Both the position numbers and the translations under genes were made by a program. The notes beneath the pieces were generated by a model. That model did not search any database. It saw only the letters and a program-made list of their open reading frames with translations, and had not been told where the DNA came from. From assembly GCA_030602715.1 (NCBI GenBank), contig JAUVZD010000007.1:85146-149145 (forward strand): a stretch of DNA of 64,000 bases, written 5' to 3'. Positions 1,308 through 49,969 of the stretch are shown here, piece by piece. How positions within the stretch are numbered: position 1 is the first letter of the stretch; each line of letters starts with the position of its first letter. The DNA is from Candidatus Coatesiibacteriota bacterium. GTDB lineage: Bacteria > RBG-13-66-14 > B26-G2 > JAUVZD01.

Positions 1308-2204
1308 CTAATCCCTATACAATATCGCCTTTATGCGGTCAAAGGAGGGGGGGCTGGTGCTCACCTCCCAACTGACCGAGTAGATATCGTAACCGCCATA
1401 ACCATCCATCCTGACGGAGGTAAAGTAGAGCAGATTCTCCTCGGCGTCAAAGAAAGCTCCCCACTCCGGGCTGGATGAGCTGATGAAATCGGGCAGACGC
1501 TGTGCTTTCTCCCAGCCCTCGTCGGTGAGATGGGAGTAGAAGATGTCGTAATCGCCTGCTTGCAGGAGCACATTGGAACTCCACATAAGCAGGTTGTGGG
1601 TGAAGAAGGGGTATTTCTCGTTATAAGCGGTATTTATACGACTGCCCAGGTTGAGCGGTTCGCTCCATCCCCCTTCAGTGCGCAGGCTGACCCAGATATC
1701 CAGTCCCCCGAAGCCCCCTTCCCTGTCGCAGCAGAAGAAGAGCATCTCCCCGTCCTCGGATATACAGGGCGCCGCCTCCACCCCGGGGGTACTTATGGGC
1801 TCACCCAGATTCTGGGGCTTCTGCCACTTCCCCTTCACCCTGCGGGAGAAATATATGTCCTCACTTCCCAAGCCGTCGGGTCGGTTAGAGTGGAAGTAAA
1901 GCACATCAGCCCATCCATCAAATGACGGCGAGGCGTCAAGATAAGGGGTGTTGACGCCTGCAAGCTCCTCCGCCATCATCCAGCCCTCGGTGGAGGGGTC
2001 TATATAGAATATATCCCAATCGCCTGAGCCACCCATGTGGTCCCGGGCGGAGAAATACAACATCCCCTCATAGACGGTGGCATCACCCTCATCAAGGTAG
2101 GAGTTGACCTCCTCGCCGAGGTTCTTCACCTCTCCCCACACCTGAGCCCAGGCCGGAAGGGGAGCCGTAAAGAGAGATACCACAATGAGCACCAGATAAC
2201 GCAT
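1308..2204 (-). CDS. Secreted PD40/WD40-like beta-propeller protein with C-terminal tail motif
   Basis: 298 residues with a clear signal peptide (MRYLVLIVVSLFTAPLPAWAQ). The mature part holds repeated blade motifs of the PD40 type: MLYFSARD, VLYFHSNRPDGLGSEDIYFSRR, MLFFCCDREGGFGGLDIWVSLR and LLYFTSVRMDGYGGYDIYSVSW. Such propellers are usually periplasmic or surface binding proteins; no enzyme motif is visible. The last residues, PPSFDRIKAILYRD, fit a tail pattern shared with the exported proteins at 37424-38053 and 49469-49969. Only 64 bp separate it from the small membrane protein gene upstream on the same strand (2269-2538), and it ends in two successive terminators. Confidence 0.85.
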   Translation of the reverse strand: MRYLVLIVVSLFTAPLPAWAQVWGEVKNLGEEVNSYLDEGDATVYEGMLYFSARDHMGGSGDWDIFYIDPSTEGWMMAEELAGVNTPYLDASPSFDGWADVLYFHSNRPDGLGSEDIYFSRRVKGKWQKPQNLGEPISTPGVEAAPCISEDGEMLFFCCDREGGFGGLDIWVSLRTEGGWSEPLNLGSRINTAYNEKYPFFTHNLLMWSSNVLLQAGDYDIFYSHLTDEGWEKAQRLPDFISSSSPEWGAFFDAEENLLYFTSVRMDGYGGYDIYSVSWEVSTSPPSFDRIKAILYRD

Positions 2205-2679: not shown

Positions 2680-4941
2680 ATGAAAGTAAAATTTGTATTG
2701 ATAGGCGTCTTTTCTGCCCTAATCTTCGCCTTCTGCGCCCAGGCGGACCAGCCGGAGTGGTCCTTTGAGGGCTACGACCAGTTCCTTAAGTGGCGACAGG
2801 AGCAGAACGAGCGACTGCCACAGACGCTGGACAGTGAAGCAGAACACAACTACGATGTCAAAGCCTACTACATCTACCTAGATGTTGATATAACCGGTGA
2901 ATATATCCAGGGATACTGCACGGTCACCATGGAAAGCACCATTGCCGGCTTGGACACCGTGGAGTTGGACCTGCGCAGTCTGACCGTTACCGACTGCGAG
3001 TTCAACGGTTCAAGCGCATCATACAGCCAGGACACCTATCTGATAACCATCTATCTACCCACCCCTCAAAATCCGGGCACCGACTTTGATGTAACCGTCT
3101 ATTATGAGGGCAATCCCGCAGACGGAATGTTCTTTGATACCGACCCGGTCTGCGCCTTCACCCTCACCGAGCCGACGGAATCCCGCTTCTGGTATCCCTG
3201 CTACGACGACCCTTCGGACAAAGCCGACCACTGCGATGTGGTCATCACCGTTGACGGCGACTACGAAGTCGCTGGAAATGGACTGGAGGTCTGGCGCAGT
3301 TACTCCGGCGGACGCACCATCTCCCACTGGTATGAGTCCCACCCCATTCCCACCTACCTGGTCGCCGTCGCCATCTGCGACTATTCCGTGCTGGAGGACA
3401 GCTATCAGGGAATGCCGCTCAAATACTATGTCTATCCGGGGGAGGAGAGCGACGCCTGGATCGCCTTTGAGCATACCTCGGATATGTTTGACCTCTTCAA
3501 TGATATTTATAGCACCTATCCCTTCCAAGACGAGAAATACGCCATCGCCGAGCTACCCTTCGGCGGGGGAATGGAGCAAACCACCTGCTGTTTTCTGGGC
3601 GAATACTGGGTCATGCCTTCTCACTCTTCGGACTGGATACTTGCCCACGAACTCTCCCACCAGTGGTGGGGCGATTGGGTTACTTGTGGCACCTGGATGG
3701 ATATCTGGCTCAACGAGGGTTTCGCCACCTACAGCGACGCCCTCTTCGCCCAATATTTCTACGGCGAGGAAGCCTTCCAGAACCGCATGCAGAATTTCGC
3801 CGATGCCTACTTTGAGGAGGACTCATGGTATCGCTTCCCCATCTATGACCCGCTATATATGTGGGGGGCGACGGTCTATGAGAAGGGGGCTTGGATTCTG
3901 CACATGATGCGCAGAGTATTTGACGACGATGACCAGTTCTTCCAGATGCTCCGTAATTACGGTAACGCCCACGCCTACAGCACGGCTATTACCAGCGAAT
4001 TCCAGACTGCTGTGGAGGCAGGCTACGGCGACGACTTCAGCTGGTTCTTTGATGAATGGGTCTATCTGGCTGGATATCCGGAGATAGAATATGGGTGGAC
4101 GGCTGACGGCAATACCGCCACTCTGTATCTATATCAGGTGCAGGAAGTTGACGACCTGACCCCCCTCTTTGAGATGCCGGTGGATGTTCGCCTCACCACC
4201 ACCGCAGGCGCTGAGGACTTTGAAATCTGGATGAGTCAAGAATCGGAGACTTTTGAGTTCACCGCCTCCGGGGAGATCACCGACCTGGAGTTTGACCCGG
4301 ATAACTGGCTCCTGTGCACAAAGGATGAGACCATAGACGTAGCATTGCACTACTTCAGCGCAACCGCCACCGCATCGGGCATCAACCTCTCCTGGGAGAT
4401 TTCAAGCGACGAGGAAATCTTCGGGTTCAACCTCTACCGCCGTTTACTGGATACCGATGCCGACCAAACGCCGGAATCCATCGGGGTAAAGAGCAATGCG
4501 AACTCATCCGGTGCATGGAGCAAGATCAACGAGCAACCCATTACCGGCGAAAATCCCTACTCCTATCTTGACCGGGGGGTATTTGAGGAAAAGAGATACG
4601 AATATCGGCTGGAGGTGATAATCATAGCGGGGAAGAGGACCATCGGCAACACAGAGGTCATCGCCTCCACCACTCCCGGCTCCTTCGCCCTGCTACAGAA
4701 CTACCCCAACCCCTGGAGCGAGACCACCACCATAACCTTCACCCTGCCGGAAGCCTGCGAGATCTCCCTTGGTATATACGATATCTCCGGCAGGCTGGTG
4801 AAGGAGGTCGCCTGTGGTTATTACCAGAGCGGTGAGCACCAACTCACCCTGGACAACTCCCAACTCAGCAGCGGAGTATATGTCCTGCGCCTGTCAAATA
4901 GTGAACAGATGTCCTTCAGCAAGATGGTCTTTGCTAAATAA
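2680..4941 (+). CDS. Secreted M1-family zinc metallopeptidase with C-terminal sorting domain
   Basis: 753 residues. The signal peptide spans roughly residues 1-22. The N-terminal half is an aminopeptidase-N-like beta domain followed by the thermolysin-like catalytic domain. The zinc site is HELSHQWWGDW (HExxH) with the third ligand in LNEGFATY. FGGGMEQ stands in place of the usual GAMEN substrate loop. After the peptidase come a fibronectin-III-like segment (INLSWEIS ... GFNLYRR, about residues 560-660) and a classic C-terminal sorting domain: LLQNYPNPW, YDISGRLVKE, SGVYVLRLS and a final basic KMVFAK. In Bacteroidetes such domains direct type IX secretion. No T9SS gene is in this window, so the export route is unknown. 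An isolated gene with its own promoter and terminator. Confidence 0.93.
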   Translation: MKVKFVLIGVFSALIFAFCAQADQPEWSFEGYDQFLKWRQEQNERLPQTLDSEAEHNYDVKAYYIYLDVDITGEYIQGYCTVTMESTIAGLDTVELDLRSLTVTDCEFNGSSASYSQDTYLITIYLPTPQNPGTDFDVTVYYEGNPADGMFFDTDPVCAFTLTEPTESRFWYPCYDDPSDKADHCDVVITVDGDYEVAGNGLEVWRSYSGGRTISHWYESHPIPTYLVAVAICDYSVLEDSYQGMPLKYYVYPGEESDAWIAFEHTSDMFDLFNDIYSTYPFQDEKYAIAELPFGGGMEQTTCCFLGEYWVMPSHSSDWILAHELSHQWWGDWVTCGTWMDIWLNEGFATYSDALFAQYFYGEEAFQNRMQNFADAYFEEDSWYRFPIYDPLYMWGATVYEKGAWILHMMRRVFDDDDQFFQMLRNYGNAHAYSTAITSEFQTAVEAGYGDDFSWFFDEWVYLAGYPEIEYGWTADGNTATLYLYQVQEVDDLTPLFEMPVDVRLTTTAGAEDFEIWMSQESETFEFTASGEITDLEFDPDNWLLCTKDETIDVALHYFSATATASGINLSWEISSDEEIFGFNLYRRLLDTDADQTPESIGVKSNANSSGAWSKINEQPITGENPYSYLDRGVFEEKRYEYRLEVIIIAGKRTIGNTEVIASTTPGSFALLQNYPNPWSETTTITFTLPEACEISLGIYDISGRLVKEVACGYYQSGEHQLTLDNSQLSSGVYVLRLSNSEQMSFSKMVFAK

Positions 4942-37423: not shown

Positions 37424-38053
37424 ATGAAAAAAATCATCCTTTCATTTGGCGTTCTTTCTTTAATGGTCGCCCCGCTCCTGGCCACTGAGGTAATTATTGG
37501 AGACCAGGACGGATTCCATAACGACCCCTGGTGTGGCGGCTGAAGTGCACAAATGAGGTATCAAGCCTTAATCCTGCAGTCGGAGATCGGACTTGCGGGC
37601 GAAATCACCAAGTTAGCATTTCAAGCCTACACCAGCTCGGGAGGAAGCTTCAATAACGTCCATGTTTATCTCTGCCATACTTCCGTTGATTCATTGAGCA
37701 CCAGCTTTGAAGCCAACTACGGTGGAAACGACCCCGGGGAAGTATTTTATGCCCCAACAAAGTCAATGTCGGGATCAGCCGAAAGCTGGACGGACATAGT
37801 ATTTGACGACCCCTATTACTACAACAACAGCGACAACCTGCTGGTGGAAATTAAATGGAGCGGGGGAAGTGGCACATACTACTCCCACACATCCAACACA
37901 TCCGGCTACTACTCCTGCGGTTACGCCTTGAGCTACTCCGCCCCCACCATGACCCACCACAACCAATGGCACAATCGCTTCCGCCTGACCATCGAACCCA
38001 CCGATGAAGTCCAACCCGCTTCCCTGGGTAAACTGCGTAGTCTATACCACTAG
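37424..38053 (+). pseudogene. Exported protein with tail motif, interrupted by an in-frame TGA
   Basis: Reading from ATG 37424, preceded by GGAGGAGG, gives a signal peptide (MKKIILSFGVLSLMVAPLLA), then TEVIIGDQDGFHNDPWCGG, then a TGA at 37541-37543. After it the same frame runs on for 170 codons: MRYQALILQSEIG, a beta-rich body (EITKLAFQAY, VHVYLCHTSVDSLSTSF, NNSDNLLVEIKWSGGSG) and the tail PASLGKLRSLYH. Neither half is functional alone, because export signal and body are split. A TGG-to-TGA change would explain it, as would a sequencing error; recoding (selenocysteine or readthrough) is possible but unsupported. The promoter, ribosome site and terminator are all intact. Confidence 0.8.
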
Positions 38054-46261: not shown

Positions 46262-47473
46262 ATGTCCATAATACTGGTGGTCAATGTCGGTTCCTCCTCG
46301 GTGAAGTATCAGCTCATAGACATGGGCAAGGACAAACCAGTCCGCCTTGCCAGAGGTTTGGTGGAGCGCATCGGGCTGGACAGCTCCATTCACACCTACA
46401 TCCCTTTAGACGGAGAGATGATGCGCAAAGAGCTGGAGGTCCCCGACCACAGCAAGGCAATTGAGGTCGCCCTGGAGACCCTCCTTGACCCCGATGTGGG
46501 CGTGATCGCCGACAGGGGGGAGATAGCCGCCGTCGGTCATCGTGTGGTGCACGGGGGGGAGAAGTTCTCCTCCTCCACCATCATCAACGACGAAGTAATG
46601 GAGCAAATAATGGAATGCCGGCGCCTGGCTCCACTGCACAACCCCCACAACATAAAGGGCATTGAGGCTTGCCGACGGCTCTTTCCCCACACACCACAAG
46701 TAGCGGTCTTTGACACCGCCTTCCATCAGAGCATGCCCCCCCACGCCTTCCTCTACGCCCTCCCCCACGAGCTATACACCGAGCAGGGGGTGCGCAGATA
46801 CGGCTTCCACGGCTCAAGCCACCGCTTCGTTGCCCGGGAAGCGGCACGGGAGCTGGGCAGACCTCTCTCCGAGCTGAAACTGATCACCGTCCATCTGGGA
46901 AACGGCTGCTCCATAACCGCTGTGCAGGGCGGGGCATCCATGGACACCTCCATGGGTCTAACACCGCTGGAGGGTCTGGTAATGGGCACCCGCTCGGGGG
47001 ACATAGACCCGGCCATACCTTTGATGCTGATGCGCACTTCGGGAATCCATACCGAGGGGATGGAGCGGATATTGAACCGCAAGAGCGGAATTCTGGGGCT
47101 CTCGGGAATCGGAAGCGACATGCGGGAGATTGAGGAAGCTGTAGAGGCGGGGGACGAAGCCGGCATCCGCACCCTTGAGGTCTTCTGCTATCGGATTAAG
47201 AAATACATCGGCGCCTATATGACGGTTCTGGGCGGATTGGACGCCCTGGTCTTTACCGGCGGAATCGGCGAAAACTCCATGGTGGTGCGGCAAAAATCCA
47301 CCGCGGGTCTGGAGTTTCTGGGCATCCATCTTGACCATGAGCAAAACCGGAGGCTCAACCGCAGTCGCGGGCGGATAAGCAGGCAAGATTCACCGGTGGC
47401 GGTCTTCATCATCCCCACCGACGAGGAGCTGGTGATAGCCGAGGACACCTACGCCCTCCTGGGCGGGGGCTAG
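46262..47473 (+). CDS. ackA: Acetate kinase
   Basis: 403 residues. Interconverts acetyl phosphate plus ADP and acetate plus ATP, the ATP-forming step of acetate fermentation. Motifs: ILVVNVGSSSVKYQLID, VGHRVVHGGEKF, PLHNPHNIKGIEAC, AVFDTAFHQSMPPHA, RRYGFHGSSHRFVA, LGNGCSITAV, DTSMGLTPLEGLVMGTRSGDIDP and FTGGIGENS. Its last 60 codons (47291-47473) lie inside a 303-bp segment repeated at 49195-49497, so the window carries one full and one fragmentary copy of the 3' end. No pta gene is adjacent. The ribosome site before the ATG is weak. Confidence 0.96.
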   Translation: MSIILVVNVGSSSVKYQLIDMGKDKPVRLARGLVERIGLDSSIHTYIPLDGEMMRKELEVPDHSKAIEVALETLLDPDVGVIADRGEIAAVGHRVVHGGEKFSSSTIINDEVMEQIMECRRLAPLHNPHNIKGIEACRRLFPHTPQVAVFDTAFHQSMPPHAFLYALPHELYTEQGVRRYGFHGSSHRFVAREAARELGRPLSELKLITVHLGNGCSITAVQGGASMDTSMGLTPLEGLVMGTRSGDIDPAIPLMLMRTSGIHTEGMERILNRKSGILGLSGIGSDMREIEEAVEAGDEAGIRTLEVFCYRIKKYIGAYMTVLGGLDALVFTGGIGENSMVVRQKSTAGLEFLGIHLDHEQNRRLNRSRGRISRQDSPVAVFIIPTDEELVIAEDTYALLGGG

Positions 47474-47593
47474 GGGAAATTTCCTCTTTTGGAGTTATTT
47501 TCGGGTGTTACATCTGTGGGGGTATCGGGGCGGATATTATACCGTTAAACTTAAGACCCATCCATCAATTGAACAGAGCCCTTAAATTACCCA
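47291..47593. repeat. 303-bp direct repeat, left copy
   Basis: Covers the last 60 codons of ackA, its 3' flank, and 29 bp matching the 3' end of the minus-strand secreted gene. By hand alignment it differs from the right copy (49195-49497) at about 16 positions with no gaps, i.e. roughly 95% identity. The copies are offset by exactly 1904 bp. Confidence 0.93.
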
Positions 47594-47652
47594 ATGAATC
47601 CTGTCCACCACAACACGCGTGGGGAATACTAACACACCACCCGTAACCCACC
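47565..47652 (-). pseudogene. Remnant of a second tail-motif protein gene
   Basis: On the minus strand a short frame ends SLGNLRALFN followed by TGA, identical to the C terminus of the protein at 49469-49969. Ser and Leu before the repeat boundary are conserved with different codons (TCA-TTG versus TCT-CTG). The frame is open for only about 28 codons upstream, without a start or signal peptide, so it is a fragment. Either it is a true decayed paralogue or the repeat boundary lies here by chance. Confidence 0.55.
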
Positions 47653-49194: not shown

Positions 49195-49377
49195 CAAAAA
49201 TCCACCGCCGGTATGGAGTTTCTGGGCATCCATCTTGACCAGGAGCAAAACCGGAGGCTCAACAGCAGTCGGGGGCGGATAAGCAGGCAAGATTCACCGG
49301 TGGCGGTCTTCATCATCCCCACCGACGAGGAGCTGGTGATAGCCGAGGACACCTACGCACTGCTGGGCGGGGGCTAG
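49195..49377 (+). pseudogene. ackA 3'-end fragment (duplicate)
   Basis: 60 codons plus stop reading KSTAGMEFLGIHLDQEQNRR ... EDTYALLGGG, matching the last 60 residues of ackA with three substitutions near its start (L to M, H to Q, R to S). It has no start codon or promoter of its own and lacks the catalytic domain. It is part of the right copy of the 303-bp repeat. Confidence 0.93.
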
Positions 49378-49497
49378 GGGAATTTTCCTCTTTTGGAGTT
49401 ATTTTCGGGTGTTACATATGTGGGGGTATCGGGGCGGATATAATAAAGTTAACCATAAAGCCCATCCATCAATTGAACAGAGCCCTTAAATTACCCA
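49195..49497. repeat. 303-bp direct repeat, right copy
   Basis: The partner of 47291-47593. Here the ackA end is a fragment and the minus-strand secreted gene is complete, the reverse of the left copy. Confidence 0.93.
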
Positions 49498-49969
49498 GAG
49501 ACTTCGGTTCCACACCTGTATTAGTAAACCTATCAACCCAACTGTTATCCTCGTCAAATATAACCCAGCCTTCACCTTCAGGGATAGTGTTAAGAAGTAT
49601 TAATTCATATCCCTCTCCATGTTCAGAGTAAAAACCGCAGTCAAATTGCTCCTCTATGTAGGTATCACCAGGATTAATATCAAAGTAAAAATCAGCATAA
49701 TCATCGTAATCATAAACAATAAAATGAAAATTTAGTACATTCGTATTAACTAAGGTGTTTTCAGAGAGATATATACCTATCTGGATATAATCCAAATAAG
49801 CAGATGGTTCATTTTGACCATCCTCACCATAGTCCCAATTGTAGTGCCACCTTGGATAATCCTCCAAATCCCAGTCCCAATAGGTGTCTGTAAAGTCGTA
49901 GTCCGCCGGGGCTTGCGCCGCGGTCAGGCTTATTGCCAATACCGCTAAAGCTATAATTGTGGTTTTCAT
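49469..49969 (-). CDS. Small exported acidic protein with C-terminal tail motif
   Basis: 166 residues from ATG 49969, which has GGAGG 6 nt before it; a longer frame lacks a site. Signal peptide about 1-20 (ISLTAAQAPA). The mature protein is very acidic and rich in Asp, Tyr and Trp (DFTDTYWDWDLEDYPRWHYNWDYGE) with beta-strand-like segments (LNFHFIVYDYDDYADFYFDI). A calcium-binding or surface role is possible. The last residues, EPKSLGNLRALFN, match the tail of the proteins at 37424-38053 and 1308-2204. Its 3' end overlaps the right 303-bp repeat. Confidence 0.8.
   Translation of the reverse strand: MKTTIIALAVLAISLTAAQAPADYDFTDTYWDWDLEDYPRWHYNWDYGEDGQNEPSAYLDYIQIGIYLSENTLVNTNVLNFHFIVYDYDDYADFYFDINPGDTYIEEQFDCGFYSEHGEGYELILLNTIPEGEGWVIFDEDNSWVDRFTNTGVEPKSLGNLRALFN

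Follow-up and report, generated by a model that had tools for sequence, protein, structure and literature searches.

A shared C-terminal tail on exported proteins in the window

The window, a 64,000-nucleotide stretch of the genome of a Candidatus Coatesiibacteriota bacterium (the home genome), raises the question of what is signified by a short C-terminal ending shared by exported proteins with dissimilar bodies. A sequence-only reading had assigned one pattern to three exported proteins and a fourth copy to a gene remnant. Two of the three assignments stood. The gene at 49469 to 49969 (minus strand) encodes a small acidic protein of 166 amino acids with a type I signal peptide (MKTTIIALAVLAISLTAAQA) and no Pfam or NCBIfam match. 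Its tail, PKSLGNLRALFN followed by the stop codon (49469 to 49507, minus strand), scored 25.2 bits with a profile that was made solely from tails outside the window and applied to 409 genes called in stretches sampled from the home genome. The tail of the exported protein encoded at 37424 to 38053 (plus strand), PASLGKLRSLYH plus stop (38015 to 38053), scored 37.0 bits. Called tail genes scored 25 to 47 bits, and the best non-tail gene among the 409, the PD40 protein aside, reached -0.4 bits.

The third assignment did not hold at that level. The end of the PD40 propeller protein (1308 to 2204, minus strand), PPSFDRIKAILYRD (1308 to 1349), has Asp in place of the invariant Gly and a register that is off by two residues; it scored -28.7 bits when anchored and 6.1 bits if shifted by two residues. 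Chance alone would yield about 0.1 matches of this kind over the approximately 409 genes, and therefore a tail on this protein is unproven. Its end could be a decayed tail or a chance likeness. The fourth copy, SLGNLRALFN without a gene body (47565 to 47597, minus strand), was not independent. It marks the edge of a 193-nucleotide, 94% identical segmental duplication (47401 to 47593 and 49305 to 49497) that includes the 3' end of an acetate kinase gene and no more of the tail gene than its final ten codons. The bodies of the three window proteins are unrelated, as the earlier reading had supposed, which rules out ordinary full-length homology.

Distribution of the tail within the home phylum and beyond

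The tail was far more frequent than first noted. Reading of frames in the home genome gave about 28 tails with the consensus V-Q-P-[TA]-S-L-G-x-[IL]-[KR]-[AS]-[LIM]-[FY]-x; the general consensus is V-x-P-x-S-[LVF]-G-x-[IV]-[KR]-[AS]-[LIM]-[FY]-x-stop. Across the 2.31 Mb of this genome the pattern G-x-h-[KR]-[AS]-h-[FY]-x-stop matched 34 sites, versus 7 for the reversed pattern. A stricter DNA pattern matched 20 sites in the home genome, 18 in genome G002, and 84 to 123 in each of four genomes of the home class (G003 to G006), and its reversal, used as a control, matched none in any of 14 genomes of the phylum. Homologs in a sister family (f5) end in SWGxIKAG[FIL] or SWGxIKAAGL, and the variant SWGxIKAxF-stop was found 9 to 27 times per genome in G007 to G011 (controls, 0 to 1). 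Ungapped alignment of the variants leaves the common core [L/W]-G-x-[I/V]-K-[A/S]-x-[F/Y], after which class 1 has one further residue and f5 has none. The Gly is invariant, and the Ser/Thr and Lys/Arg positions are nearly so.

A second phylum carries its own form. A Candidatus Eisenbacteria record (L106) and its phylum have P-[ST]-[ST]-W-G-x-I-K-x-L-Y-R-stop, which was present in 41 of 47 genomes at up to 31 copies per genome, with a single control match overall. The 20 sites that were fetched comprise 22 ends, and every complete, unambiguous open reading frame among them starts with a signal peptide. No tail match was found in the sampled Cloacimonadota and Omnitrophota genomes. Two IMG/VR contigs catalogued as viral (L081 and L082) encode exported proteins with the tail; these contigs are probably host DNA.

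Several tail genes, partly paralogous, can lie within about 6 kb of one another (L044 8169 to 14461, contig C4 of the home genome), and similar clusters occur in G003. No constant non-tail partner was seen, by eye, among the genes neighboring tail genes. Several carriers are tandem paralogs, which, together with the segmental duplication in the window, are what would be expected if the tails were nonfunctional, being the homologous ends of one duplicated family or a mobile DNA repeat. This explanation is very improbable because the bodies are unrelated (mean column identity, 10%) and because variant forms of the tail are conserved across two phyla. Furthermore, the conserved positions are encoded by mixed synonymous codons, and therefore selection acts on the peptide; a DNA repeat or mobile element was rejected on the same grounds.

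Tail carriers have type I signal peptides

The carriers were characterized in an unselected sample, 800 kb of G004 in two blocks picked by position alone, in which about 710 genes of at least 80 amino acids were called and signal peptides were assigned by a simple rule. The tail was present on 43 of these genes. A type I signal peptide was found on 41 of the 43, in 33 cases by the simple rule and in 8 upstream of an in-frame TGA; one of the remaining two genes follows a run of N and the other is ambiguous. Thus, 41 of 200 genes with type I signal peptides had the tail, versus none of 36 lipoprotein genes (Fisher p 0.0012) and none of 473 multi-transmembrane or no-signal genes, comprising 105 multi-transmembrane and 368 other genes (Fisher p 1e-23 versus type I). 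In 42 of the 43 copies exactly one residue separates the motif from the stop. Both checks put forward in the sequence-only reading, for enrichment among signal-peptide proteins and for confinement to the very C terminus, therefore bore it out. Just one-fifth or so of the type I genes are tailed, so most exported proteins must need something else or nothing.

The tail proteins in this sample are 122 to 337 amino acids long, with bodies that include propellers, DNRLRE/CBM96 domains, and Pfam-negative proteins; some match a ScyF-like NHL propeller model. The architecture is that of small (about 120 to 340 amino acids), nonlipidated secreted proteins consisting of a type I signal peptide, a body, a flexible V-x-P linker, and a tag whose ten-residue form is S-[L/W]-G-x-[I/V]-K-[A/S]-x-[F/Y]-(x)-COOH. 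Judged from these sequences, the tail is quite probably a short C-terminal sorting tag that acts after Sec. Export-only carriers and a fixed C-terminal place support the earlier suggestion of a sorting-type signal, and from them we infer sorting itself. The tail looks like an address label for the cell envelope.

Tail and lipid anchor replace each other in a propeller family

A family of six-bladed NHL propellers in G003 and G004 occurs in two forms, one with a lipobox and one with a signal-peptidase-I site. Five lipobox propellers of G003 (LLGAC or LLAAC) stop at the closing strand, for example at RVQYFKKRD-stop, and have no tail. The signal-peptidase-I propellers of both genomes run on into PAVEPTSLGRVKALFR-stop or a similar end (13 of 13 in G004). 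One tailed propeller of G003 was flagged as a lipoprotein by a crude rule, but its Cys, at residue 10, is too early for this to be a lipoprotein signal. Tandem lipoprotein NHL propellers with a lipobox and an ESPTEPP linker adjoin tailed signal-peptidase-I relatives at L110 13186 to 19869 and L109 17834 to 19793.

The lipoprotein paralogs need no tag, and therefore the tag may serve soluble proteins as the lipid anchor serves lipoproteins. In the sequence of events that we propose, the signal peptide would direct the protein through Sec and then be cleaved, and an envelope receptor would recognize the tag plus the free C terminus and bring the protein to the outer membrane or surface or retain it there. 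The distance to the stop would be fixed because such a receptor would read the tag together with the free end. The swap of tag and lipid anchor on one fold makes the role of the tag directly testable.

PDZ or Tsp-type proteases are also known to read free C termini. A motif at a fixed distance from the end might accordingly be read by an envelope protease, for quality control or for maturation, and not serve localization. We consider this improbable, because the tail is limited to a subset of exported proteins and because all 36 sampled lipoproteins, as well as the lipoprotein paralogs that share a fold with tail proteins, lack it, which a degron of general use in the envelope would leave unexplained.

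Properties of the tail peptide

AlphaFold models of two unrelated folds have bodies near pLDDT 97 and loose tails. Residues 191 to 209 of the jelly-roll model have a pLDDT of about 55 to 67, with a low-confidence helix at 201 to 207, and the final 20 residues of the propeller model average about 47 to 58, with a low-confidence helix at 312 to 319. In both models the tail is disordered or a short helix and contains no folded beta-sheet domain. Over their last ten residues, tails carry a net charge of +2.2, versus +0.2 in other exported proteins. An amphipathic helix is weakly supported, as hydrophobic periodicity was 0.56 at strand spacing versus 0.39 at helix spacing and thus fits a strand at least equally.

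These properties bear on whether the tail might itself be the anchor, with its basic amphipathic end binding a membrane, lipopolysaccharide, or a surface polymer directly and needing no protein receptor. The charge, the low-confidence helix in both models, and the replacement of the lipid anchor by the tail among the propellers are all consistent with this possibility. However, the hydrophobic periodicity is not specific to a helix, and the fixed C-terminal distance, the invariant Gly, and the near-invariant Ser/Thr and Lys/Arg exceed what membrane binding would demand. A receptor-free anchor is therefore rather unlikely.

Relationship to the type IX secretion system

The same cells have a type IX secretion system (T9SS). 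In the window, the M1 peptidase encoded at 2680 to 4941 carries a T9SS-type C-terminal sorting domain (PF18962; 4702 to 4929, plus strand; E 2.1e-11). Por_Secre_tail matches number 35 in the home genome and 20 to 58 in each genome of the phylum, and SprA was matched in all 14 genomes of the home phylum, in 46 of 47 genomes of the Eisenbacteria phylum, and in none of 14 control genomes. No protein of the G004 sample had both signals, none of its 43 tail proteins matching a local profile of the T9SS domain, and Pfam detected Por_Secre_tail in none of 39 tail proteins. Proteins with the T9SS domain were also larger (431 to 1072 amino acids) than the tail proteins in that sample. Two C-terminal classes thus coexist, because the T9SS domain and SprA occur throughout the phylum and the two signals are never on one protein in the sample. 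The distribution of the tail, its position, and this mutual exclusion are direct observations, and the tail class is separate from the Ig-like T9SS domain of larger proteins in the same cells.

Separate signals might still share an exit. T9SS type A (PF18962/TIGR04183; PorV, SprA) resembles the tail system in that a Sec signal peptide is combined with a C-terminal signal on varied cargo, dozens of times per genome. Different T9SS C-terminal classes are read via different shuttles, with PorP/SprF-like shuttles in place of PorV for type B domains (PMC12618676). The extreme C terminus is important in T9SS, the last two residues mattering in RgpB (PMC11285876), and the tail, like type A signals, coexists with SprA. 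Therefore, the tail could be a third T9SS signal class, recognized after Sec by a dedicated shuttle or adaptor and exported through SprA. Against this, the type A domain is an Ig-like beta-sandwich of about 75 amino acids, whereas the tail consists of about ten residues with no fold and tail proteins have neither a beta-sandwich nor a T9SS-domain match. Nor is the tail one of the published 'short' T9SS domains, because those have 43 to 55 amino acids and three strands (PMC11969387). SprA also failed as a predictor of the tail, since the two do not correlate in the Eisenbacteria phylum: among draft genomes, G070, G071, and G076 to G078 have SprA and no tail, and G029 has tails and no SprA match. 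We regard a third T9SS class as possible but on the unlikely side.

A more far-reaching reading, to which we give somewhat less than an even chance, is that the tail marks cargo for a system of export or surface anchoring that has not been described and that differs from T9SS and from all transmembrane CTERM systems. Its receptor would read the ten-residue C-terminal peptide, and the system would predate the split of the home and Eisenbacteria phyla.

Comparison with other C-terminal signals

To our knowledge, post-Sec C-terminal sorting classes rely either on a folded beta domain (T9SS) or on a transmembrane tag (sortase, exosortase, and myxosortase types). The PEP-CTERM/exosortase (PMC1569441) and MYXO-CTERM/myxosortase (PMC11980579) systems are similar to the tail in that short C-terminal homology recurs many times per genome on diverse signal-peptide proteins, and the cargo includes homologous proteins (matches to the ScyF-like NHL propeller model). 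However, their tags combine a transmembrane helix with a basic cluster, whereas the tail has no transmembrane helix. The tail proteins had no C-terminal hydrophobic stretch, and one residue or none follows the motif, unlike PEP-CTERM, MYXO-CTERM, and LPXTG proteins. The C-terminal beta-signal read by BAM is the last strand of an outer-membrane barrel with an aromatic end, whereas the tail bodies are propellers or jelly-rolls; the aromatic residue is penultimate in class 1 and in the Eisenbacteria type, and just the f5 variant ends in Phe. Encapsulin cargo peptides resemble SLGIGSLR, but an encapsulin mechanism was rejected because the tail carriers are exported.

The published literature that was searched contained no description of the tail. 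Within the libraries and papers that were searched, it ranks as a strong and undescribed C-terminal sorting-type tag. If so, two uncultured phyla would have a new sorting class based on a ten-residue, C-terminus-anchored peptide with as many as about 120 copies in a genome, and the surface and envelope proteins of these organisms could be listed from sequence via the tag.

A predicted selenoprotein family among the tail carriers

Through the tag, a large family of predicted selenoproteins that are exported also came to light; ordinary gene calling starts these genes too late or truncates them at TGA. The tailed window gene at 37424 to 38053 encodes a 209-amino-acid protein with a signal peptide and a predicted jelly-roll fold, and codon 40 is an in-frame TGA (37541 to 37543, plus strand) that would specify selenocysteine in the motif WCGGU (WCGG-TGA-SAQ). 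About 110 matches to the family occur in the phylum, up to 28 per genome and part of them with the TGA, and the family has no Pfam or NCBIfam match. A stop is present at the codon-40 site in 31 of the members that were fetched, and it is TGA in 31 of 31; 22 members lack it. The signal peptide lies upstream of the TGA, and most members have a Cys adjoining the predicted selenocysteine or within three residues of it. A SECIS-like hairpin with the loop CCAGGxCCUGG follows the TGA (mean z, -1.49 for the 31 TGA members versus +0.10 for the 22 others). The hairpin region of the window copy (37544 to 37591, plus strand) is weak (z -0.5), and the hairpin is clear in many relatives. The home genome encodes a tRNA-Sec with anticodon TCA (G000:C3:336968-337061). 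A fold search with the selenoprotein body returned lectin/CBM-like jelly-rolls (Z up to 12.2) and yielded no functional assignment.

We therefore have high confidence in the prediction that the gene at 37424 to 38053 is unbroken and very likely encodes selenocysteine, because a large family of exported proteins conserves both the in-frame TGA and a SECIS-like hairpin. A pseudogene was rejected for the same reason. Reading of TGA as Trp throughout was also rejected, because TGA terminates genes as well in these genomes and because Trp is not what homologs lacking the TGA have at the site. The family resembles prokaryotic CxxU/UxxC selenoproteins (PMC13188914) in having the TGA in a redox-like motif, a downstream hairpin, and a tRNA-Sec in the genome, but differs from them in being exported, in having no Pfam or NCBIfam match, and in reaching up to 28 matches per genome.

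Further jelly-roll members with a conserved in-frame TGA were seen at L120 10829 to 13700 and in L129 to L158. In addition, exported thioredoxin-like tail proteins have TGA at the first Cys position of a CxYC-type motif (UxYC). Examples are TTTUPYC at L049 5500 to 6309 (contig C9 of the home genome) and TWUGYC and IPUSYC in G004 (G004:C1, near 362168 to 363684).
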